Shown here: piece by piece, positions 7,803 through 64,000 of the stretch
How positions within the stretch are numbered: the stretch's first letter is position 1
How the letters are laid out: each line of letters starts with the position of its first letter
NCBI RefSeq assembly: GCF_010994095.1
Contig: NZ_WJYO01000007.1
Location: 124,001 to 188,000 of the forward strand
Length of the DNA stretch: 64,000 bases
Reading direction: 5' to 3'
Source: Mumia xiangluensis
Lineage (GTDB): Bacteria > Actinomycetota > Actinomycetes > Propionibacteriales > Nocardioidaceae
Notes under the pieces: model-generated
The model's input: only the letters and a program-made list of their open reading frames with translations
What the model was told of the DNA's origin: nothing
The model's database searches: none
Position numbers and translations under genes: made by a program

Positions 7803-8836
7803 CGGGGTGGCTCGGTTTCGACTCGCTGCGGGTTTCGAGACGGGCCTCGTTCCTCGGCCCTCCTCAACCCAAGTCGCTCAACCAGCGGAGCCTGCACGAA
7901 GGCGGTCGCGGCATCGCGTACCCACGCTCCCTCGTCGTGCGCCCGCCTGCGGTGGGCGAGGCGCTGGGCGTTGCACGGGCCGTTGCCGCTGATGACGTCG
8001 GCGAACTCGTCCCAGTCGGGCTGCGCGAAGTCGTAGTGCCCGCGCTCGGCGTTCCACGCCAGCGTCGCGTCGGGGAGCGTCACGCCGAGCGCCTCCGCCT
8101 GCGGGACGGTCATGTCGACCATCTTCTGGCGCAGGTCGTCGTTGGTGTCGCGCTTGATCCCCCACGCCATCGACTGCGCCGTGTTGGGCGACTGGTCGTC
8201 CGGCGGTCCGAACATCATCAGCGACGGCCACCAGAACCGGTCGACGGACTCCTGCACCATCGCGCGCTGCTCGTCCGTGCCACGCATCATCGTCATCAGC
8301 AGCTCGTAGCCCTGACGCTGGTGGAACGACTCCTCCTTGCAGATGCGGATCATCGCGCGGCCGTACGGCCCGTAGGAGGTGCGGCACAGCGGCACCTGGT
8401 TGCAGATCGCGGCGCCGTCGACGAGCCAGCCGATCGTGCCGACGTCGGCATATGTGAGCGCCGGGTAGTTGAAGATCGAGGAGTACTTCTGGCGACCCTC
8501 GAGGAGCATCTGCGTGAGCTCGGCCCGGGAGACCCCGAGGGTCTCGGTCGCCGAGTAGAGGTAGAGCCCGTGGCCGGCCTCGTCCTGCACCTTCGCAAGC
8601 AGGATCGCCTTGCGGCGCAGCGAGGGCGCGCGGGTGATCCAGCTGCCCTCGGGCTGCATCCCGATGATCTCGGAGTGCGCGTGCTGGGCGATCTGGCGGA
8701 CGAGCGTCCTGCGGTAGCGCTCGGGCATCCAGTCGCGCGGCTCGATGCGGTCGTTGTGCGCGATCGTCTGCTCGAACTGCTCGAGAAGCGCAGCCTCGTC
8801 CGGCGATACAGCGTCGACCTGTGGCGCGCTGGTCAT
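7799..8836 (-). CDS. paaA: Phenylacetyl-CoA epoxidase catalytic subunit PaaA, with repeat-derived C-terminus
   Basis: This 345-residue di-iron oxygenase subunit inserts one oxygen atom into the ring of phenylacetyl-CoA. The start is ATG 8836 with AGGAGG four bases upstream. Ligand regions are visible: [17 protein letters not shown] (EAGH) and [15 protein letters not shown] (EESFH). The family core ends near [20 protein letters not shown]. The last roughly 35 residues (from about residue 313) are rich in Arg, Glu and Pro and are encoded by a palindromic intergenic-type repeat. The protein is thus longer than E. coli PaaA (309). First gene of the paa operon. Confidence 0.95.
7813..7884. repeat. 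REP-like nested palindrome inside the 3' end of paaA
   Basis: On the + strand an outer pair of arms, GGTTTCGACTCGC near 7814 and AAGTCGCTCAACC ending at 7883, encloses an inner element that runs from GGTTTCGAGACGGGCCTCG to CCTCCTCAACC. The GGTTTCGAGAC...CTCAACC form is a common short intergenic repeat in Nocardioidaceae and other actinobacteria, by my recollection of such genomes. Here it lies in frame in paaA and abuts the paaB start codon. I saw no second copy in the window. Confidence 0.75.
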
Positions 8837-8858
8837 GGCGCCTCCTGCACGTGATGGG

Positions 8859-8890
8859 CTGACCAGTATTTACTGACCGATCGTTCTGTA
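8859..8890. promoter_or_regulatory. paaA promoter region with overlapping operator-like palindromes
   Basis: A 20-base imperfect palindrome, TACTGACCGATCGTTCTGTA (8871-8890, 16 of 20 symmetric), overlaps a perfect 12-base palindrome CAGTATTTACTG (8864-8875). CTGACC also occurs as a direct repeat 14 bases apart (8859 and 8873). The AT-rich TAAATACT read on the minus strand could be the -10 box of the paa operon. A central CG-rich palindrome fits a TetR operator; PaaR from the nearby TetR gene is the likely ligand. This is inferred from position and symmetry. Confidence 0.6.
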
Positions 8891-8895
8891 TCAGA

Positions 8896-9966
8896 CTACA
8901 CGCGCGAGCCCGCCCTGCCGAGCCTCTCGTCCGCCAGGTCCCGAGCGGCGTGATCGTGGCTGATGCCGCCCACCCGCGACCGTACGAACACCTCGCGGAG
9001 CGTGTCGGCGATCCCCTCGACGTGGGTGGCGACCTCCTCGGCGGTCCAACCCAGCACCTCACGGCCGATCAGGTGGATCGCACCGCCTCCGCTAGCGACG
9101 AAGTCGGGCGCGAGGACGATCCCACGCCGTGCCAGCTCGTCACCCGCCGCCGTGTCGGTGAGGACGTTGTTAGCGGAGCCGACGACCGCCCGGGTACGGA
9201 TCGTCCGCGCGACGTCGACGTCGATCACGCCGCCGACCGCGCACGGGGAGAAGACGTCGGACTCGACGCCGAGGATCGCGTCGGGGGGTACGACCTCGGC
9301 GCCGAGCGCAGCGGCCCGCTCGCACAGCACCGGGTCGATGTCGGTGACGATCAGGTGAGCGCCGTCCTTTCGCGCCAGCTCGACGACCTCCATGCCGACG
9401 GCGCCGAGCCCCTGCACGGCGATGCGGCACCCGGCGAGGTCATCGATCCCCACCTCGGCAGCCGACGCGACGATGGCGACGTGCACGCCCAGCGCAGTGG
9501 CCGGTGCGCTCGAGCCGGAACCCCCGGCGGCCTCCGACCTCCCGAACGCCGGCGCGCCGAACCCGCAGACGACGTCCATGTCCGCCGACGACGTCCCGAG
9601 GTCAGGGCCCGTCCAATAGCTGCCCCCCAGCGTCTTGAGGTTCTCGGCGTGGAGCTCGAGGATGCGTCGCCAGTGGTCGTCCGCGAGCTCGCGGCGCGGC
9701 GCCGGCAACGCGATGACGGCCTTCCCGCCACCCATCGGCAGATCGGCAGCCGCCATCTTGAGCGTCATCGCGCCCGCGAGGCGCGTCGCGTCGGTGACCG
9801 CATCGGCGTACGAGTCGTACTGCTTCACTCGCGTGCCCCCCGCGGCAGGCCCGCGCTCGCGCGAGTGGATCGCGACCACGAAGAAGGCTCCGGTCTCCCG
9901 GTCGTACCGGGTCGCGACCAGGGACCCGTCCCATCCGGTGATGACGTCCTCGATGGACACGTTCAC
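8896..9966 (-). CDS. pdh: Phenylalanine dehydrogenase (Glu/Leu/Phe/Val dehydrogenase family)
   Basis: About 356 residues from GTG 9966, which has GGAAGG upstream; an ATG at 9990 is also in frame but lacks such a site. It reversibly deaminates an amino acid with NAD+. The sequence closely follows the Rhodococcus phenylalanine dehydrogenase as I know it: LGPAAGGTR-like GPAAGGTR, AGAMTLKMA (substrate lysine), LPMGGGKAVIALPAPR (catalytic lysine), YWTGPDLGTSSADMD (catalytic Asp), VQGLGAVGMEV (nucleotide fold) and APDFVASGGGAIHL. Position next to paaA suggests phenylalanine to phenylpyruvate feeding phenylacetate degradation. Leucine or valine dehydrogenase remains possible. Confidence 0.85.
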   Translation of the reverse strand: MNVSIEDVITGWDGSLVATRYDRETGAFFVVAIHSRERGPAAGGTRVKQYDSYADAVTDATRLAGAMTLKMAAADLPMGGGKAVIALPAPRRELADDHWRRILELHAENLKTLGGSYWTGPDLGTSSADMDVVCGFGAPAFGRSEAAGGSGSSAPATALGVHVAIVASAAEVGIDDLAGCRIAVQGLGAVGMEVVELARKDGAHLIVTDIDPVLCERAAALGAEVVPPDAILGVESDVFSPCAVGGVIDVDVARTIRTRAVVGSANNVLTDTAAGDELARRGIVLAPDFVASGGGAIHLIGREVLGWTAEEVATHVEGIADTLREVFVRSRVGGISHDHAARDLADERLGRAGSRV

Positions 9967-57684: not shown

Positions 57685-60069
57685 TCACCTCGCCACGGCG
57701 CCCCAGCGTTCCGGCTCGAACATCGGCATCGCCGCGAGGTACGGCTCCGCGATCTCGAGCTCCAGCAGCGCAACGCCGAGATCCCCCTTGTAGAGGCTGT
57801 TCGGGAGCATTCCGCGGGTCCCGACGAAGCCGACGGCGTGGTCGAGCCGGTCGCGAGCCCGTCCGACATGGACACCGTCGCCCGTCAGCCGCGACAGCGC
57901 CAGGAACGCATAGCCCTGTCCGGCGGCGCCGCAGCAGAGCTGCCCCGCTCCTGGGGAGGGATGCCTCCAGACGTGCTCCCCGGCGGCCAGCGCGAGCTCG
58001 AGCGCGTCGACGTCCGGGAGTGCCTCGGTGCTGTGCACCTCCGACCACAGCAGCGTGTGCCCCGTCGTCCCGTGGCACCATCCCGCCTCCAGACCCTCGT
58101 TCATGCTGCCGATCGACCACGACACCGCGCCCGCGTCACGCTGCGCCTCACCGGCGAGAGCGCGGAGCAGGCCACGGACGGACTCGGGAACGGGCTCCCC
58201 GGCTGCACGCAGGTATCTCAGGAGTGCGTACGCGACTCCAGCCCAGCCGTGCGCGACCCCAAGGAACGGCTCGCCGGTTCCCGGCACGGCTTCCTCGACG
58301 CCGTCGAGCGGATCCAGCAGCGCTCCCGTCGTCTTGTCGCCGAGGGCACGGAGCCTGTCGCGCTCGTCGTCGACCCCGACCGCCGCGGCCGTCTCGAGCA
58401 GAGTCGCGAACGCGATCAGCCGACCGGCCGCCCCGGTCACGACGTCGGCACGAGGGTCGGAGCGCTCTGAGGCTGTGACGAGGCGCCCGATCGCCTCACT
58501 CGCCCGCGATCGTTGATCGAGGGCCAGCGCAATCTGAGCGTCGACCAGGTGCACACCCACCGGTGAGTGGTAGAGCGACGCCCGGCCGACGGTGTCCTCG
58601 TCCAGTCCTCTCGAGGGGTCGGCGAATGCGTCGTCGTAGGAGGTCACAGCGTCCCGCTTCGCGCGTTCGATCCAGAGGTCGGCCGCGGCGAGCAGATCCC
58701 CGCGCTCCGTCAGGCCGCTCGCGCGCAGGAGGAAGCTCGCGATGCCGGCTGCGCCGAGGTTGACGCTGGCCGTCGGGCGTGGGAGCGGGCGACGCACCTC
58801 TGCGTCTTCGGCGAGACGACCGATGGCCGCATCGACGAGCCCCGGCGGCGTCCACGGCTGGGCGGTCGAAGGACGGCCCGGACCGACCAGACTGCGCTGT
58901 GCAGCATCCGCGAACGCATCGCGGAGCTCGGCGACCGACGCGTACCGTGCTGCAGGGTCCTTCGACAGCGCGCGATGCAGGACCGCCTCGATCTCCGGCC
59001 ACGGCGGGATCCCGTGGCGGACGAACGCACGGGGTGGCTCGGTGCAGACGGCGCGGTGCCAGGCATCCGGGTCGAGCCGCCGCTCAAGGTAGTCGTGCCC
59101 GGCGAGCAGCCGATAGACGAGCGCGGCAACGGCGTACTGCTCCGAGGCGGGAGTCGGCGTCGGTGGGTGTTCCCCGCGGAGCGCCGACCCCGCCCACTCC
59201 GGGGTGATGAACGTCGCGACTCCCCCGCGGAGCCGCGACGGCTGCTGCTCCCCCACGCGTACGGCGAGCCCGAAGTCGACCAGAGATGCGTCCCCGGTGC
59301 CAGGATCGAGGAGCACGTTCGTCGGCTGGACGTCGCCGTGCAGGAACCCGTGCTCGTGCAGCTCGGCGTAGCGCGTGAGGACGCTGGTGCACATCACGGC
59401 GAGCGGTGCGCGCGTCTCGGACAGCCACGGGCGGCGCACGTGCGCGGCCGCAAGCTCGGAGGTCAGCCCAGGACGCCATGCAACGACGAGGTACGGCGTC
59501 TCCGCGTCGACGCCCTCCTCGAGCAGTTCCGGCGCGCCGTTGCCAGCGAGCTGGTGCAGCGCGATGGCTTCGTTCCGCAACGCGACGTGCACCCACGCCT
59601 CGGCACGGGGCGAGACCCGCTTCAGGACGCCGCGACCACCGTCCGGTCCGCGTACGAGGAAGACCTCGGTGTCGTCGAGCTGACGCAACGGCTCGAGCGG
59701 CTGCCACCCGCCCGCCGATTCGACCGCACCCATTGCGGAGACCGAGCGGGCCGCCGCCGGCATGAGGAACTCGTCCTTCACCATTCTTGCGAGGAGGTCG
59801 AAGCTCTGGTTGAGGACGTCCATCGGGACACGGCCCGTCCGCGCGCTGTAGCGCTGGAGAGCGTCGGGGATGCTGCTCGCCGCACGGAACTCCTCGAGCA
59901 GCTCCGCACCCGCACGATCGATCAGGCGTGTCGTCCGTCGCGAGTGCTCCTTCGTGATCGCGAAGTCGCCGTCCTCGGCATCGATCTGAGCCTGCAGCAC
60001 GGGGTCGAGGTCCCCGACCGCCACCACGGTCACCTCACTCGCGAGGACGAAGGCCTCATCCGGGTCCAT
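57685..60069 (-). CDS. RRE-like/protein kinase/LanC cyclase fusion (class IV-like lanthionine synthetase lacking its lyase)
   Basis: This 794-residue protein starts at ATG 60069 with TGGGGGA upstream and overlaps the lyase-like gene by 14 bases. Residues about 36-106 look like a PqqD-type winged helix (TRLIDRAGAELLEEFRAASS; SFDLLARMVKDEFLMPA). A protein kinase domain follows at about 125-390 with all key residues: VLK150, E167, HGDVQPTN (244-251) and VDFG (264-267). The LanC domain (about 430-790) has DxxxG (542), HGWAG (608), WCHG (664-667) and CCG (712-714), giving three possible Cys zinc ligands. Predicted to phosphorylate Ser/Thr of a peptide and cyclise Cys onto the dehydrated residues. 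Annotated in databases most likely as LanC-family protein. Confidence 0.85.
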   Translation of the reverse strand: MDPDEAFVLASEVTVVAVGDLDPVLQAQIDAEDGDFAITKEHSRRTTRLIDRAGAELLEEFRAASSIPDALQRYSARTGRVPMDVLNQSFDLLARMVKDEFLMPAAARSVSAMGAVESAGGWQPLEPLRQLDDTEVFLVRGPDGGRGVLKRVSPRAEAWVHVALRNEAIALHQLAGNGAPELLEEGVDAETPYLVVAWRPGLTSELAAAHVRRPWLSETRAPLAVMCTSVLTRYAELHEHGFLHGDVQPTNVLLDPGTGDASLVDFGLAVRVGEQQPSRLRGGVATFITPEWAGSALRGEHPPTPTPASEQYAVAALVYRLLAGHDYLERRLDPDAWHRAVCTEPPRAFVRHGIPPWPEIEAVLHRALSKDPAARYASVAELRDAFADAAQRSLVGPGRPSTAQPWTPPGLVDAAIGRLAEDAEVRRPLPRPTASVNLGAAGIASFLLRASGLTERGDLLAAADLWIERAKRDAVTSYDDAFADPSRGLDEDTVGRASLYHSPVGVHLVDAQIALALDQRSRASEAIGRLVTASERSDPRADVVTGAAGRLIAFATLLETAAAVGVDDERDRLRALGDKTTGALLDPLDGVEEAVPGTGEPFLGVAHGWAGVAYALLRYLRAAGEPVPESVRGLLRALAGEAQRDAGAVSWSIGSMNEGLEAGWCHGTTGHTLLWSEVHSTEALPDVDALELALAAGEHVWRHPSPGAGQLCCGAAGQGYAFLALSRLTGDGVHVGRARDRLDHAVGFVGTRGMLPNSLYKGDLGVALLELEIAEPYLAAMPMFEPERWGAVAR

Positions 60070-60745
60070 GCGTCCCCCACGGATCGAGCGGTGCCTGCCA
60101 CGTGTCCGGGTCGATCCCGAGTGCGACCAGCCGCGACCGGGCGGCAGCGAGCGCATCGCCGCCGTCGGCCGCGAGGATCGCGCGAGCGAGCTCCGTGCAC
60201 AGCCACAGCCGCCAGCTCGTGAGCCGGTCCGCGTCGTACGGCGGGTCGACCCCGCTCGACACGAGGCCTGCTGAGTCGAGGGGAAACGTGAACGGTACGC
60301 CGTGGGCCGGGATGCCATCGAGCCTCTCCGCCGCCAGCCGTGCCACGTCGAGCATCTCGTTGCGACCTCGGAAGTAGGCGACCAGCTTGTCGGGGCGCGC
60401 GAGGAAGCTCGGTGTCGCGCCGAGCTTGAACGCGACACAGGGCGAGTCGGTCACCAGCGGCGTCAGCACGCGCACGGCGTCTCCCACGGCCTCCGGCATC
60501 GGGCTGATGTACAGCTTGTGCGCGACCGTGGGAGTCCTACTCGTGCCGTCCCGGCGGATCCAGCTGAGCCAGCCTGCCCGGCGCTCGAGCCGTCTGCTCC
60601 GCCAGTGCTCGCTCAGGCCCGGCGTGCCAGCGAGCACGAAGCCTCGCAGGTCACGCTCGCCGGGCACCGCGGCACGGATCTTGGGCGACAGCGGGAGCCG
60701 GTTGAACCCGTACAACCGGACCGTCAGGTCGTCACGAGCGGCCAT
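60056..60745 (-). CDS. Stand-alone HopA1/LanKC-like phospho-Ser/Thr lyase candidate
   Basis: This 229-residue protein starts at ATG 60745. The central part, AHKLYISPMPEAVGDAVRVL ... VAFKLGATPSFLARPDKLVA, follows the pattern of the N-terminal lyase domain of class III synthetases (KxHVS...FKF...SGKFVTIY) and HopA1-type lyases. Candidate catalytic residues are H76, K77 and K107. A C-terminal helix has YDADRLTSWRLWLCTELARA. In class III/IV enzymes this lyase is fused to the kinase and cyclase; here it is separate and coupled to them by overlap. Similarity is by eye and remote, so the function is a proposal. Confidence 0.6.
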   Translation of the reverse strand: MAARDDLTVRLYGFNRLPLSPKIRAAVPGERDLRGFVLAGTPGLSEHWRSRRLERRAGWLSWIRRDGTSRTPTVAHKLYISPMPEAVGDAVRVLTPLVTDSPCVAFKLGATPSFLARPDKLVAYFRGRNEMLDVARLAAERLDGIPAHGVPFTFPLDSAGLVSSGVDPPYDADRLTSWRLWLCTELARAILAADGGDALAAARSRLVALGIDPDTWQAPLDPWGTHGPG

Positions 60746-60764
60746 GCCCAGTGCCGCGCCGTAG

Positions 60765-60780
60765 CGGAGCCCTCGCTCCG
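60765..60780 (-). promoter_or_regulatory. Hairpin between peptide gene and lyase gene
   Basis: CGGAGC (60765-60770) and GCTCCG (60775-60780) pair perfectly around a CCTC loop, in the 62-base gap between the Cys-rich peptide gene and the lyase gene. Partial termination here would make more peptide than enzyme, as in many RiPP operons. There is no T-run. Confidence 0.5.
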
Positions 60781-60807
60781 AGAGCTGCGGCAGCGATCCG
60801 GACGTGG

Positions 60808-61104
60808 CTAGCCTCCTGCCTTCGCCTCCACCGATTTGAGGACCGCGGCGATCGCCTTCAGGTTGAGGACGAGTTCGACCTCACCTTGCGGGTTCGGGAT
60901 GAGGGCGCCCGTCGAGTCGGGTCCCTTGCAGGTCGCGCTGCACGCCGTGCACTCCCCGCTGCAGTTGGTGCAGCCATCCGTGCACACGCAGCCCGTGTCG
61001 ATGTCACAGCCCTCGCCCCACTTCGGGCGAAACTCGAGACCGCGTCGTGTCGCACTGATGCTCATCGTCAGGTACTGATGCTTGAACTCCTGCTTCTTGG
61101 CCAC
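60808..61104 (-). CDS. Cys-rich 98-residue peptide, candidate RiPP precursor
   Basis: The start is GTG 61104, five bases after AGGAG. Residues 1-32 form a charged, strand-like N-terminus (KHQYLTMSISATRRGLEFRP). Residues 33-61 hold eight Cys (33, 39, 41, 45, 48, 52, 55, 59) and seven Ser/Thr. From residue 41 three heptads of the form C-[ST]-x-x-C-[TK]-x follow: CTDGCTN, CSGECTA, CSATCKG. A conserved-looking amphipathic tail (ELVLNLKAIAAVLKSVEAKA) ends the protein. It is the first gene of the kinase-cyclase operon. It is proposed as the peptide substrate; a small metal-binding protein is the main alternative. Confidence 0.7.
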   Translation of the reverse strand: MAKKQEFKHQYLTMSISATRRGLEFRPKWGEGCDIDTGCVCTDGCTNCSGECTACSATCKGPDSTGALIPNPQGEVELVLNLKAIAAVLKSVEAKAGG

Positions 61105-61240
61105 GTCATCTCCTAGCTCCGAAGGTAGGAGACAGACCCCTCTGCCTCGTCTTTCGAGGCTACGCTCGCTCTCCGGTCACGACGCCGACTTTGTGCCCCA
61201 CGTTGTCGGTCGGGCTTGACACCCTTGGCAAGGTGGCCTC

Positions 61241-61681
61241 ATGGCACATGTCGAACGTTTCGACCACATCGGCATCACCGTCGCCGACCTCGAGGCGGCG
61301 ACCGCGTTCTTCGTCGGGCTGGGTCTCGAGGTGGAGGGCACCGGCTCCGTCGAGGGCGAGTTCGTGGAGACCGTCTGCGGCATCCCGGGAGCCCAGTGCG
61401 AGATCGTGATGCTGCGACCGCCCGACGGAGGTTCGCGGCTGGAGCTCTCGAGCTTCGTGACACCCGACCACGTGCCCGGATCCCCCACGGCGATGGCGAA
61501 CGAGCTCGGCCTGCGCAACGTGTCGTTCGAGGTCGGCGACCTCGATGCGGCCCTGGAAGCGGTGGCTGCGGACGGATTCGGCCTCGTTGCCGGCATCGGC
61601 GAGTACGAGAACAGCGTGCGGATGGCCTACGTACGGGGGCCTGAGGGGATCATCGTGTCCCTGTTCGAGCAGCTCGGCTGA
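61241..61681 (+). CDS. VOC-superfamily (glyoxalase/dioxygenase fold) protein
   Basis: This 146-residue protein starts at ATG 61241. The two beta-alpha-beta-beta-beta modules are visible: VERFDHIGITVADLEAATAF (metal His) and LRNVSFEVGDLDAALEAVAA, with a final metal Glu region in GPEGIIVSLFEQL. Families with this fold include glyoxalase I, methylmalonyl-CoA epimerase and resistance proteins. The substrate is unknown. It is divergent from the Cys-rich peptide gene, with 136 bases between starts; TTGACA at 61216 lies too close to its ATG to be a normal -35 box. Confidence 0.85.
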   Translation: MAHVERFDHIGITVADLEAATAFFVGLGLEVEGTGSVEGEFVETVCGIPGAQCEIVMLRPPDGGSRLELSSFVTPDHVPGSPTAMANELGLRNVSFEVGDLDAALEAVAADGFGLVAGIGEYENSVRMAYVRGPEGIIVSLFEQLG

Positions 61682-62262
61682 CAGTCGGGGCGTACGCGCC
61701 ACCATCGGCGTGACGCGACGGCGGCCAGCCCAGCGCCGGCGGTGTTGAGCAGGACGTCGTCGACGGACGAGACGCGGCCCAGCTGCATGGCGTACTGCGC
61801 CGACTCGATCAGGATCGAGCCGGCAGCCGCGAGGGCGAGGATCCGCGGGATCGACGCGAGCGCCGCGAACCGCACAGGCGCGAGGAAGCCGAGCGCCGCG
61901 AAGACCAGAAGGTTTCCGACGATCTGGTACGGCGGCATGCCGAGGAGGTCCCGGATCGGCACCTCGCTCACCCCACCGTGCGCGGCGCCGTGGCTGGCCG
62001 GCAGCAGGGTGAGCCACACCCACGGCAGCGTCCCGGCGACGATGCCGACCTCCGCCAGCGACGTACGCCAGGCGGCCGCCGTCGGGCTGCCGGCTCGACG
62101 GCGCCTGCGGGCCAGCCCCCACACCACCAGCGCCGCCAGGGGCAGCACGGTGAGCATGACGAGGGCGACCGACTCGTACCTGCCGATCCAGTCGCCCGGA
62201 CCGGGACCGTTGATGATGACGCCGCGGCTGGGTGCGATCGACGGCGGGGACGGCTCGCTCAC
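61627..62262 (-). CDS. VanZ-like membrane protein
   Basis: About 211 residues from GTG 62262, overlapping the VanY-like stop (GTGA). Five or so helices are seen, with the VanZ signature NLLVFAALGFLAP (residues about 125-137) and SILIESAQYAMQLGRVSSVD DVLLN-type motif (split here as IESAQ...VDDVLLN) near the C-terminus. VanZ proteins give low-level teicoplanin or lipoglycopeptide resistance by an unknown mechanism. Its 3' end overlaps the convergent VOC gene by 55 bases. Confidence 0.85.
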   Translation of the reverse strand: MSEPSPPSIAPSRGVIINGPGPGDWIGRYESVALVMLTVLPLAALVVWGLARRRRRAGSPTAAAWRTSLAEVGIVAGTLPWVWLTLLPASHGAAHGGVSEVPIRDLLGMPPYQIVGNLLVFAALGFLAPVRFAALASIPRILALAAAGSILIESAQYAMQLGRVSSVDDVLLNTAGAGLAAVASRRWWRVRPDCQPSCSNRDTMIPSGPRT

Positions 62263-62855
62263 CGGCGCATCCTCGGGTCGTCGGTGGGATCGGCGTACGG
62301 CGCAGGACAGCCGTCGGAGACGGCGTCGGGGCGCCGCTCGAAGTGCCACGGCTCGTTGCCGTAGACCTGGCAGAGCCCGAAGGACGCGCCGTGCCGCGAC
62401 AGCCACGACATGGCCGACGTCGGACCGATGTCGACCGCGTCACCGGCTTCGTGCACGGACGTGCCGGGGCGGGCGACCCAACGCTCGGCCTCGTCCTCCG
62501 AGCCGTACTTCGCCGCTGCTTCCTCGAAGAGCTGCTCCTGGTAGCGCTCCGACCGCCACCCGCTGTTGACGTCGAGCTCGACTCCGTCGTCGGCAGCCTC
62601 GTCGGCGGCGTCCCGGAGCGAAGCGAGGAGCCTTCGGTCGAGGTTGGCCACCGCGGGGACATCGGCGAAGACCGAGGTGCCGTCGGCGACCACGCCGTCA
62701 GCGACACCGACCGGACCGCGCTGGCCCACCAGTGGCGCGGCGGCGATCGGGCTGCACGCGACGGCGCACACGGGCACCGCGACGGCGGTCACAGCAGCGA
62801 GGACGGTCGATCGGACGCGGCGTACGGCGGGTCGTCGTGACTGGTTTCGAGACAT
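62259..62855 (-). CDS. VanY-like D-alanyl-D-alanine carboxypeptidase, exported
   Basis: This 198-residue protein starts at ATG 62855. An N-terminal signal (STVLAAVTAVAVPVCAVAC) ends in AVAC, so a lipoprotein is possible. The VanY zinc peptidase motifs are SGWRSERYQEQLF, TSVHEAGDAVDIG (His and Asp ligands) and GNEPWHFER (catalytic Glu, His ligand). It removes the terminal D-Ala from peptidoglycan stems or precursors. It forms an operon with the VanZ-like gene and is divergent from a response regulator. Confidence 0.9.
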   Translation of the reverse strand: MSRNQSRRPAVRRVRSTVLAAVTAVAVPVCAVACSPIAAAPLVGQRGPVGVADGVVADGTSVFADVPAVANLDRRLLASLRDAADEAADDGVELDVNSGWRSERYQEQLFEEAAAKYGSEDEAERWVARPGTSVHEAGDAVDIGPTSAMSWLSRHGASFGLCQVYGNEPWHFERRPDAVSDGCPAPYADPTDDPRMRR

Positions 62856-62901
62856 GCCACCAGTACAGAAAAGGGGGTGTTGCCAGCGCGTATGCGGTTT
62901 T

Positions 62902-62919
62902 CGATACGGCGACGATACG
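62902..62919. promoter_or_regulatory. 11-bp-spaced direct repeat in the vanY/response-regulator gap
   Basis: CGATACG occurs at 62902-62908 and again at 62913-62919, exactly 11 bases apart. This is the layout bound by OmpR/PhoB-type response regulators, one of which starts 24 bases downstream. It suggests autoregulation and control of the divergent vanY/vanZ pair. Confidence 0.5.
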
Positions 62920-62942
62920 TGCCTGCTCCCTACCATCGGAGC

Positions 62943-63635
62943 ATGCGCGTACTGGTCGTCGAGGACGAGCCCCTGCTTGCTGAGGCGATCCGTGATGGTC
63001 TGCGCCTGGAGGCCATCGCCGCCGACATCGCCGGAGACGGAGACACCGCGCTGGAGCTGCTGAGCGTCAACGCGTACGACCTCGCCGTGCTCGACCGCGA
63101 CATCCCCGGGCCGTCCGGGGACGAGGTCGCCCAGCGCATCGTCGCCTCCGGCACAGGCATGCCGATCCTGATGCTCACCGCGGCCGACCGCCTCGACGAC
63201 CTTGCCTCCGGCTTCGAGCTCGGCGCCGACGACTACCTGACGAAGCCGTTCGCGCTGCGCGAGCTCGTGCTCAGGCTGCGAGCACTCGATCGCCGACGCG
63301 CGCATAACAGGCCACCCGTGCACGAGATCGCCGGGCTGCGACTCGACCCGTTCCGCCGCGAGGTCTACCGCGACGGCCGCTACGTCGCGCTGACGCGCAA
63401 GCAGTTCGCCGTGCTCGAGATCCTCGTCGCCGCCGAGGGCGGTGTCATCAGCGCCGAGCAGCTCCTCGAGCGAGCGTGGGACGAGAACGCGGACCCGTTC
63501 ACCAACGCCGTACGCATCACCGTCTCTGCCCTGCGCAAGCGACTCGGCGAGCCCTGGCTGATCGCGACCGTGCCCGGCGTCGGCTATCGCATCGACACGC
63601 CTTCGGACGGGGCGGGCGGAGGCGATCGTGGATAG
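62943..63635 (+). CDS. OmpR/PhoB-type response regulator
   Basis: This 230-residue protein starts at ATG 62943. The receiver domain has VVEDEPLLAEAI (acidic pair), phosphoacceptor Asp in DLAVLDRDIPGPSG, MLTAADR and the Lys in GADDYLTKPFALREL. The winged-helix domain includes VALTRKQFAVLEILVAAEGG, TNAVRITVSALRKRL and IATVPGVGYRID. The sensor kinase gene overlaps its end. Regulation of the divergent VanY/VanZ pair is likely. Confidence 0.93.
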   Translation: MRVLVVEDEPLLAEAIRDGLRLEAIAADIAGDGDTALELLSVNAYDLAVLDRDIPGPSGDEVAQRIVASGTGMPILMLTAADRLDDLASGFELGADDYLTKPFALRELVLRLRALDRRRAHNRPPVHEIAGLRLDPFRREVYRDGRYVALTRKQFAVLEILVAAEGGVISAEQLLERAWDENADPFTNAVRITVSALRKRLGEPWLIATVPGVGYRIDTPSDGAGGGDRG

Positions 63636-64000
63636 GCCGCGCGGATTGAGCGTCCGCCTCAAGCTCACACTCAGCTATGCAGGCTTCCTGATGGTCGCCG
63701 GCGCCCTGCTGCTCGCCACGGTGTGGGTGTTCCTCCTGCGGTACGTCCCCGACCGCGCGAGCTTCGGTCCCGGCCCGTTCACGCCCACCCGCTCCGACCT
63801 CCTGGACGCCTTCGCTCCGAGAGCGGCCCAGGCGTTGGTGTTCCTGCTCGTCCTCGGTCTCGTCGGGGGCTGGTTCCTCGCCGGGCGGATGCTCGCTCCC
63901 CTGACCCGCATCACCAACGCCACGCGTCGGGCCGCCACCGGGTCGCTCGCGCACCGGATCGACATGGAGGGCCGCCAGGACGAGTTCCGCGAGCTCGCCG
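63628..64000 (+). CDS. Sensor histidine kinase, N-terminal part (cut by window end)
   Basis: The frame starts at GTG 63628, eight bases before the response-regulator stop, and is open to the end of the window (124 residues). It shows a first helix (LTLSYAGFLMVAGALLLATV), an extracytoplasmic segment of about 40 residues, a second helix (ALVFLLVLGLVGGWFLAGRM) and the beginning of a HAMP domain (LAPLTRITNATRRAATGSLA). The catalytic domains lie beyond the window. It is the partner of the preceding regulator. Confidence 0.88.
   Translation, partial: MDRPRGLSVRLKLTLSYAGFLMVAGALLLATVWVFLLRYVPDRASFGPGPFTPTRSDLLDAFAPRAAQALVFLLVLGLVGGWFLAGRMLAPLTRITNATRRAATGSLAHRIDMEGRQDEFRELA

Follow-up and report, generated by a model that had tools for sequence, protein, structure and literature searches.

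A predicted lanthipeptide-type operon with a separate lyase and an N-terminal recognition domain on a fused kinase-cyclase in Mumia xiangluensis

We analysed a three-gene operon in a stretch of 64,000 nucleotides from Mumia xiangluensis (contig NZ_WJYO01000007.1, positions 124,001 to 188,000; hereafter the window, in whose own numbering the operon is described). The operon encodes a Cys-rich peptide, a predicted lyase and a long protein joining a predicted recognition domain, a kinase and a LanC-like cyclase, and it is predicted to make a lanthipeptide-type RiPP (ribosomally synthesised and post-translationally modified peptide). Table 1 lists the individual features. A preliminary description of this DNA had reported three genes on the same strand with a 62-base gap and a 14-base overlap. 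We confirm three open frames on the minus strand, with 62 nt between the peptide and lyase genes (60746-60807) and 14 nt shared by the lyase and kinase-cyclase genes (60056-60069), and the peptide of 98 residues with eight Cys named there agrees with its open frame.

Table 1. Features of the operon, with positions in the window. RRE: RiPP recognition element.
Feature	Position	Strand	Details and basis
Shine-Dalgarno-like AGGAG	61110-61114	minus	Sequence reading; five bases ahead of the peptide GTG
Candidate precursor peptide gene	60808-61104	minus	98 aa, 8 Cys, GTG start; open frame, place and layout as in the candidate precursors of relatives
Candidate leader motif FKHQYLTMSIS, peptide residues 7-17	61054-61086	minus	Best-scoring offset in a motif model built from 19 other blocks
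Putative Cys/Ser/Thr-rich core, peptide residues 33-59	60928-61008	minus	Translation; core limits inferred
C-terminal segment, peptide residues 75-95	60820-60882	minus	Likeness of the last 35 residues to later parts of other precursors
Predicted separate HopA1/LanY-type phospho-Ser/Thr lyase gene	60056-60745	minus	229 aa, lacking the N-terminal extension seen in most relatives; model, Foldseek, hhalign, invariant residues
RRE-kinase-LanC fusion gene	57685-60069	minus	794 aa; Pfam matches, motifs, structure model
Predicted PqqD-like RRE domain, residues 1-108 of the 794-aa protein	59746-60069	minus	Family profile against 20 PqqD domains
Protein kinase domain, ~residues 120-392	58894-59712	minus	Pkinase match; K150, HGDxxxxN 244-251, DFG 265-267
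LanC-like cyclase domain, ~residues 411-787	57709-58839	minus	LANC_like match; Zn motifs WCHG (C665), CCG (C712, C713)

Lyase and kinase-cyclase form a conserved pair. When one genome per species was scanned, 19 of 55 pattern matches proved to encode a relative of the lyase. With tblastn we detected an RRE-kinase gene in 18 of these 19 loci; the remaining one, a Gemmatimonadota bin (L019; L and G numbers are our own for loci and genomes), ends at the contig end. Adding the window and loci L008 to L011, the pair was present in 23 of 24 lyase loci from six phyla, which is why we regard the operon as more than a chance arrangement. Wherever a kinase gene is in reach (23 loci), the lyase is encoded by a gene of its own. 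The kinase gene follows it on the same strand in 21 of them (in L021 after ~1.2 kb) and is inverted in the two Cupriavidus loci (L009, L024). Going by the names in their records, the hosts are Microbacterium, Micromonospora, Kribbella, Bailinhaonella, a Propionibacterium bin, five Dyadobacter, Cytophaga, two Cupriavidus, two Nitrosomonas bins, Sphingomonas, Paenibacillus, two Acidobacteriota bins and one Armatimonadetes bin. Two plasmid records, from Paenibacillus peoriae and Cupriavidus oxalaticus, were matched by the long protein, and the same two by the lyase. No relative was found in viral contigs searched with alignment-derived patterns or in phage records searched with the long protein.

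Searches with the RRE profile alone detected 3 of 345 genomes of the window's class (its own, G312 and G346), 4 of 200 genomes of the order to which G346 belongs (G346 itself plus three new ones) and 9 of 48 genomes of the genus Dyadobacter. The lyase adjoins the RRE gene in all 15 of these RRE-positive genomes. Eight of the 15 had already been found via the lyase, and several of these are rows of the RRE profile; the independent test consists of the newly found genomes, and 7 out of 7 (two genera) carry the lyase alongside. Among close relatives of the window the three-gene set is rare. In 197 genomes of its family, a search with the long protein at E 1e-40 returned nothing but the protein itself, and the lyase matched only itself, bar two fragments of ~50 residues (G053, G143), which we set aside together with one in G301.

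For the 794-aa protein Pfam reported LANC_like (6.9e-22, residues 438-784) and Pkinase (1.6e-11, residues 208-341). The kinase region scored 44.5 bits as Pkinase (cut-off 31.7), whereas the APH score of 21.5 bits remained below its cut-off of 23.2. Across the 23 kinase-cyclase rows of the family, K150, the HxDxxxxN loop and D265 are kept without exception and LANC_like was detected in 20. The Zn motifs WC(N/H)G and CCG occur in 19 of the 23 rows including the window; three lack both (L016, L017, L027) and the sequence of L018 stops before them. The latter is a Micromonospora halophytica kinase-cyclase with an in-frame stop at ~11696, ahead of the Zn motifs, either by sequencing error or by decay. 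The intact kinase and intact LanC domain of the preliminary description thus stand, as the catalytic residues and the Zn-type CCG site are kept in the window.

Pfam gave nothing for the first 108 residues of the long protein. We aligned this domain across the family (21 rows) and compared it by hhalign with 20 PqqD domains of the same class (20 of 30 PqqD loci; the remaining ones are at contig ends or were left out). The match reached 86.9 % (E 4.2e-6, score 34.9), compared with scores of at most 18.9 for 30 column shuffles and 12.0 for the reversed alignment. The model of the N-domain has strands at residues 6-9, 13-17, 36-40 and 48-50, with a short helix between strands (23-28), followed by helices at 52-61, 67-78 and 82-98. 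An RRE consists of beta strands followed by three helices according to a passage of PMC12710340, and the N-domain combines this order with a PqqD-like profile. The assignment as a PqqD-like RRE is therefore supported by sequence profile and model, and the domain is predicted to bind the leader. In Cupriavidus the same RRE is also found on a second protein (L009 14393-15301; L024 9510-10640), which in L009 is a fusion to a 2OG-Fe(II) oxygenase domain with a class I LanB gene close by. Its occurrence on an oxygenase fits the expectation for a substrate-docking module.

The 229-aa protein had been credited with LanKC/HopA1-like lyase motifs, and the idea of a split synthetase was to fall if the protein bore no structural likeness to phosphothreonine lyases. 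The likeness is there. The AlphaFold2 model (pLDDT 89.1, pTM 0.87, 22-row alignment) gave as its best PDB matches in Foldseek the HopA1 effectors 4rsx and 4rsw, the LanY-type LxmY from the class V dehydratase of lexapeptide (9dk3_B, E 1.1e-6), the phosphothreonine lyases SpvC and OspF, and the CuvL and ThurKC lyase domains, with a large rmsd in several of the alignments. At the level of single sequences the Pfam HopA1 model matched the protein with E 0.11, under the family cut-off, and found 2 of 24 family lyases at E up to 1. PDB sequence searches returned nothing relevant for the lyase, for the RRE domain or for the N-terminal extension of the lyase described below. With profiles, hhalign matched the family lyases to four Pfam-HopA1 proteins at 96.4 % (E 1.1e-9, 160 columns), to the lyase regions of class IV at 68.1 % and of class III at 64.8 %, and to the PqqD control at 0.6 %. 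The four HopA1 proteins were chosen by Pfam match alone (4 of 118 genomes) and may include proteins outside class V.

Sixteen residues are invariant in the 24 lyase rows: Y12, P18, W59, K77, K107, R117, P118, D119, K120, Y124, P151, F152, D167, S177, W178 and R179. In the window K107, R117 and Y124 show the same spacing as K219, R229 and Y236 of CaoY, a class V LanY, in a comparison of residue numbers only, taken from a part of PMC9486802. K77 aligns with an arginine of the four HopA1 proteins, which in our mapping corresponds to CaoY R187 and SpvC K104. An N-terminal extension is present in 20 of the 24 lyases and missing in the window, L016, L017 and L027; this refines the earlier picture drawn from a single locus, whose lyase happens to have none. 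tblastn recognised the extension in 19 of the 20, with L010 as the query, and failed to recognise that of L011. The extension matches the family RRE profile at 91.9 % (E 7.1e-7) but PqqD directly at only 1.5 %, and for this reason we call it RRE-related and not an RRE.

We found 26 candidate precursors in 23 of the 24 loci, and further ones in three loci (L111-L113). The idea of a split synthetase was also to be given up if homologues of the kinase-cyclase never co-occurred with the Cys-rich peptide; with a candidate precursor in 23 of 24 loci and a lyase partner in 23 of 24 the opposite was observed. The candidates share a block of the types FKFKDLAVTV, FKVNDLMIQL and FRAKKLRVQL, which lies near the N-terminus in all loci except L008. 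They have conserved ends and a variable middle, hold the same place in the operon and carry a later conserved segment after the core, which refines the earlier picture of the precursor. The eight Cys of the window peptide fall in a region where they are spaced as CxC and CxxC, and its last 35 residues are similar to later regions of other precursors (an equally good score in 9 of 2000 shuffles). The number of Cys follows the state of the cyclase: precursors have 4 to 28 Cys in the 18 loci with intact Zn motifs and a precursor found, and one Cys in each of the three loci with a cyclase devoid of Zn motifs. These three (Nitrosomonas and Sphingomonas; L016, L017, L027) have precursors of 192-194 aa and similar sequence and are apparently one related group.

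Nine candidate precursors were scanned against families and none has a convincing one. The only score over a curated cut-off was DUF760 for a repetitive Paenibacillus protein (24.3 bits, cut-off 20.2), with no single stretch passing, and the CTCS-rich peptide of L011 showed weak matches below the cut-off to two Cys-rich RiPP models. In Paenibacillus (L008, 9858-10607) three tandem cores are each flanked by the same conserved segments, L011 has two tandem precursors (8515-9233) with cores such as CGCTCSCTCSCTC, and the precursor of L010 (8674-9336) has a run of GNAGASC/GDAGASC repeats.

Beyond the two enzymes BLAST of open reading frames (ORFs) of at least 110 aa over 25 stretches identified no conserved accessory gene; small or distant genes would escape this comparison. 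By their coordinates, two other clusters run antisense to the enzyme genes; two further, small clusters comprise 4 and 3 lineages, one of them holding the response regulator of the window. A perfect 7-bp inverted repeat (TCTCCTA/TAGGAGA, 61109-61132) covers the ribosome site ahead of the peptide gene. The RNA hairpin at this place scored no better than shuffled sequences (z -0.62), but the repeat might serve as an operator. Upstream of the operon, ORFs match VanZ-like and VanY-like (D-Ala-D-Ala carboxypeptidase) proteins and a response regulator (61627-62406, minus; 62259-63668, minus; 62877-63635, plus). A link of the VanZ/VanY-like ORFs to self-protection is only a thought.

On the computed gene layout, the predicted lyase fold, the active-site residues, the PqqD-like profile of the N-domain, the conserved pairing and the precursor layout, we consider it probable that the operon makes a lanthipeptide-type RiPP by a two-protein, RRE-guided synthetase whose lyase works in trans. 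The RRE at the N-terminus of the kinase-cyclase would recognise the N-terminal motif of the precursor, FKHQYLTMSIS in the window and FKFKDLAVTV-like in relatives, and the C-terminal segment of the peptide is perhaps a second docking site. The kinase would phosphorylate Ser and Thr in the Cys-rich middle of the peptide, and the separate HopA1/LanY-type lyase would eliminate the phosphate to leave dehydro residues. The LanC domain with its Zn-type CCG site would then add Cys thiols to form lanthionine or methyllanthionine rings, and a protease encoded elsewhere may trim the product. We infer this order of reactions. As is well established, a Zn-type LanC forms the thioether once Ser and Thr are dehydrated. 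Dehydration by a kinase together with a HopA1-type lyase is described for CaoK/CaoY in the part of PMC9486802 already mentioned. By analogy the window operon may dehydrate and cyclise its Cys-rich peptide while the latter is docked via RRE and leader.

Several observations weigh against this reading. No product or activity is known, and the model of the long protein reached a pTM of only 0.56. The preliminary description had spoken of a PqqD-like segment; the profile comparison upholds this and Pfam does not, since 0 of 21 family N-domains reached the PqqD cut-off, and a PDB profile search with the N-domain found no PqqD protein. The leader blocks of the motif model were chosen by eye. The leader match of the window peptide is modest: 354 of 20000 shuffles scored as high, as did 6 of 418 ORFs of the window, itself included. 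Its C-terminal segment shows no raised hydrophobic moment. L025 yielded no candidate precursor, and in L008 the leader block begins at residue 37, away from the N-terminus. The three cyclase-loss loci, being one related group, perhaps reflect one event. As the preliminary description had noted for the window, no protease or exporter was seen alongside, and the same BLAST over 25 stretches found none linked.

The operon combines class IV traits (kinase-LanC fusion, Zn) with a class V trait (separate HopA1-type lyase) and has in addition an RRE, reported for neither. The preliminary description had held that the order of a lyase apart, a fused kinase and cyclase and an N-terminal recognition domain fits neither class III/IV nor class V, and at least one defining feature of each of the three is indeed missing; a class number needs a product. 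Class III LanKC (ThurKC, 8sap) likewise has kinase and cyclase in one chain and a HopA1/OspF-like lyase fold, but its lyase is in the chain and 7 of 7 class III controls show neither the WCxG nor the C(H/C)G Zn motif, so that the operon has neither the one-chain lyase-kinase-cyclase nor the Zn-ligand-free cyclase of this class. The three-Cys Zn site is shared by the CCG-type cyclases of the type IIa synthetases (ProcM group), which work with a LanM-type dehydratase in place of kinase and lyase. The naming of this site is that of PMC11251773, which also lists a few lyase-plus-CCC predictions.

Class IV LanL has the same kinase-LanC order as the long protein and a Zn-type cyclase, and the operon might be a LanL synthetase split by gene fission, its lyase now a gene of its own. 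Among PDB folds the long model indeed matches class IV CuvL best (8cav, E 2.8e-19), and the NCBIfam class IV model NF038150 matches the kinase-cyclase part with 143.5 bits. This score is far under the cut-off of 650, and the LanL lyase lies at the N-terminus of the same chain whereas here it is separate and a PqqD-like domain takes the N-terminus, so that fission would have to include the addition of an RRE, which is not reported for LanL. The second Zn motif is CHG in 5 of 5 class IV controls but CCG in all 19 family members with the region. In a tree of 31 kinase-cyclases the family (19), class III (7) and class IV (5) each fall on one side of a branch with support of 100/100, 100/99 and 99/98, respectively; L011 has a long branch and is placed unsurely. 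The tree left out 4 of the 23 family members (the three without the Zn region and L018 with its in-frame stop) and 2 of 9 class III loci (L084, L089; no BLAST match to the window protein), and its class IV controls are 5 of the 6 loci over the cut-off, since the sixth (L069) had a higher class III score and was entered as L086. Together with the lyase profile, which is nearer to the HopA1 proteins than to class IV lyase regions, these results make gene fission improbable.

A class V system whose kinase was swapped for a kinase-LanC fusion would account for the separate HopA1-type lyase, which the operon has by fold and profile while missing the Pfam HopA1 cut-off, and for LxmY among the best fold matches; class V members with a LanC cyclase are also reported in the review PMC12328550. 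The partner of a class V lyase is an APH-type LanK (PF01636), however, and here the kinase scores as Pkinase and forms one chain with LanC and an RRE, although the core enzymes of classes II-V are described in PMC10604976 as having no RRE that can be identified. Lys77 in place of the HopA1 arginine and the RRE-related extension of 20 of 24 lyases are further differences, and we regard such a swap as unlikely. Kinase and lyase might alternatively only dehydrate, with rings formed without the cyclase or never and a dehydropeptide as product. The three relatives without cyclase Zn motifs must work without the cyclase and have one-Cys precursors, but the motifs are intact in the window and in 18 other members and the precursors found there keep at least 4 Cys; for the window we give this little credence. 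The Cys-rich peptide could finally be a metal-binding protein, with the two enzymes acting on another protein, as its eight Cys with CxC and CxxC spacings and its weak leader match would allow. This is very hard to reconcile with candidate precursors that vary in the middle while keeping both ends and their operon place, and with one-Cys versions that accompany Zn-less cyclases.

Returning to the two-protein synthetase, we lean slightly towards a further class of lanthipeptide synthetase, in which an RRE-guided kinase-LanC protein and a HopA1-type lyase in trans act on a core flanked by a recognition strand at the N-terminus and a docking segment at the C-terminus. The three-gene set would span many phyla, and some lineages would have dropped the cyclase to make dehydropeptides from Cys-poor cores. 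We did not find this architecture described in a search of the open-access literature. In RRE-Finder, lanthipeptide clusters of classes II-IV served as negative controls taken to be independent of an RRE (PMC7470986), and the ThurKC paper cited above (PMC10604976) makes the same point for the core enzymes of class II-V; a kinase-LanC enzyme with an RRE breaks this rule. Mining rules that ask for Pkinase and LANC_like in one protein, as a passage of PMC7268733 does, would file the family as class III or IV and overlook the separate lyase. Class V-type dehydration joined to class IV-type cyclisation bears on the origin of the classes, the cyclase-loss branch is a natural test of the purpose of LanC, and it would be unusual for a precursor to have its core enclosed by two conserved ends. 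The RRE-kinase-LanC protein offers a modular and possibly portable docking part for engineered lanthipeptides.

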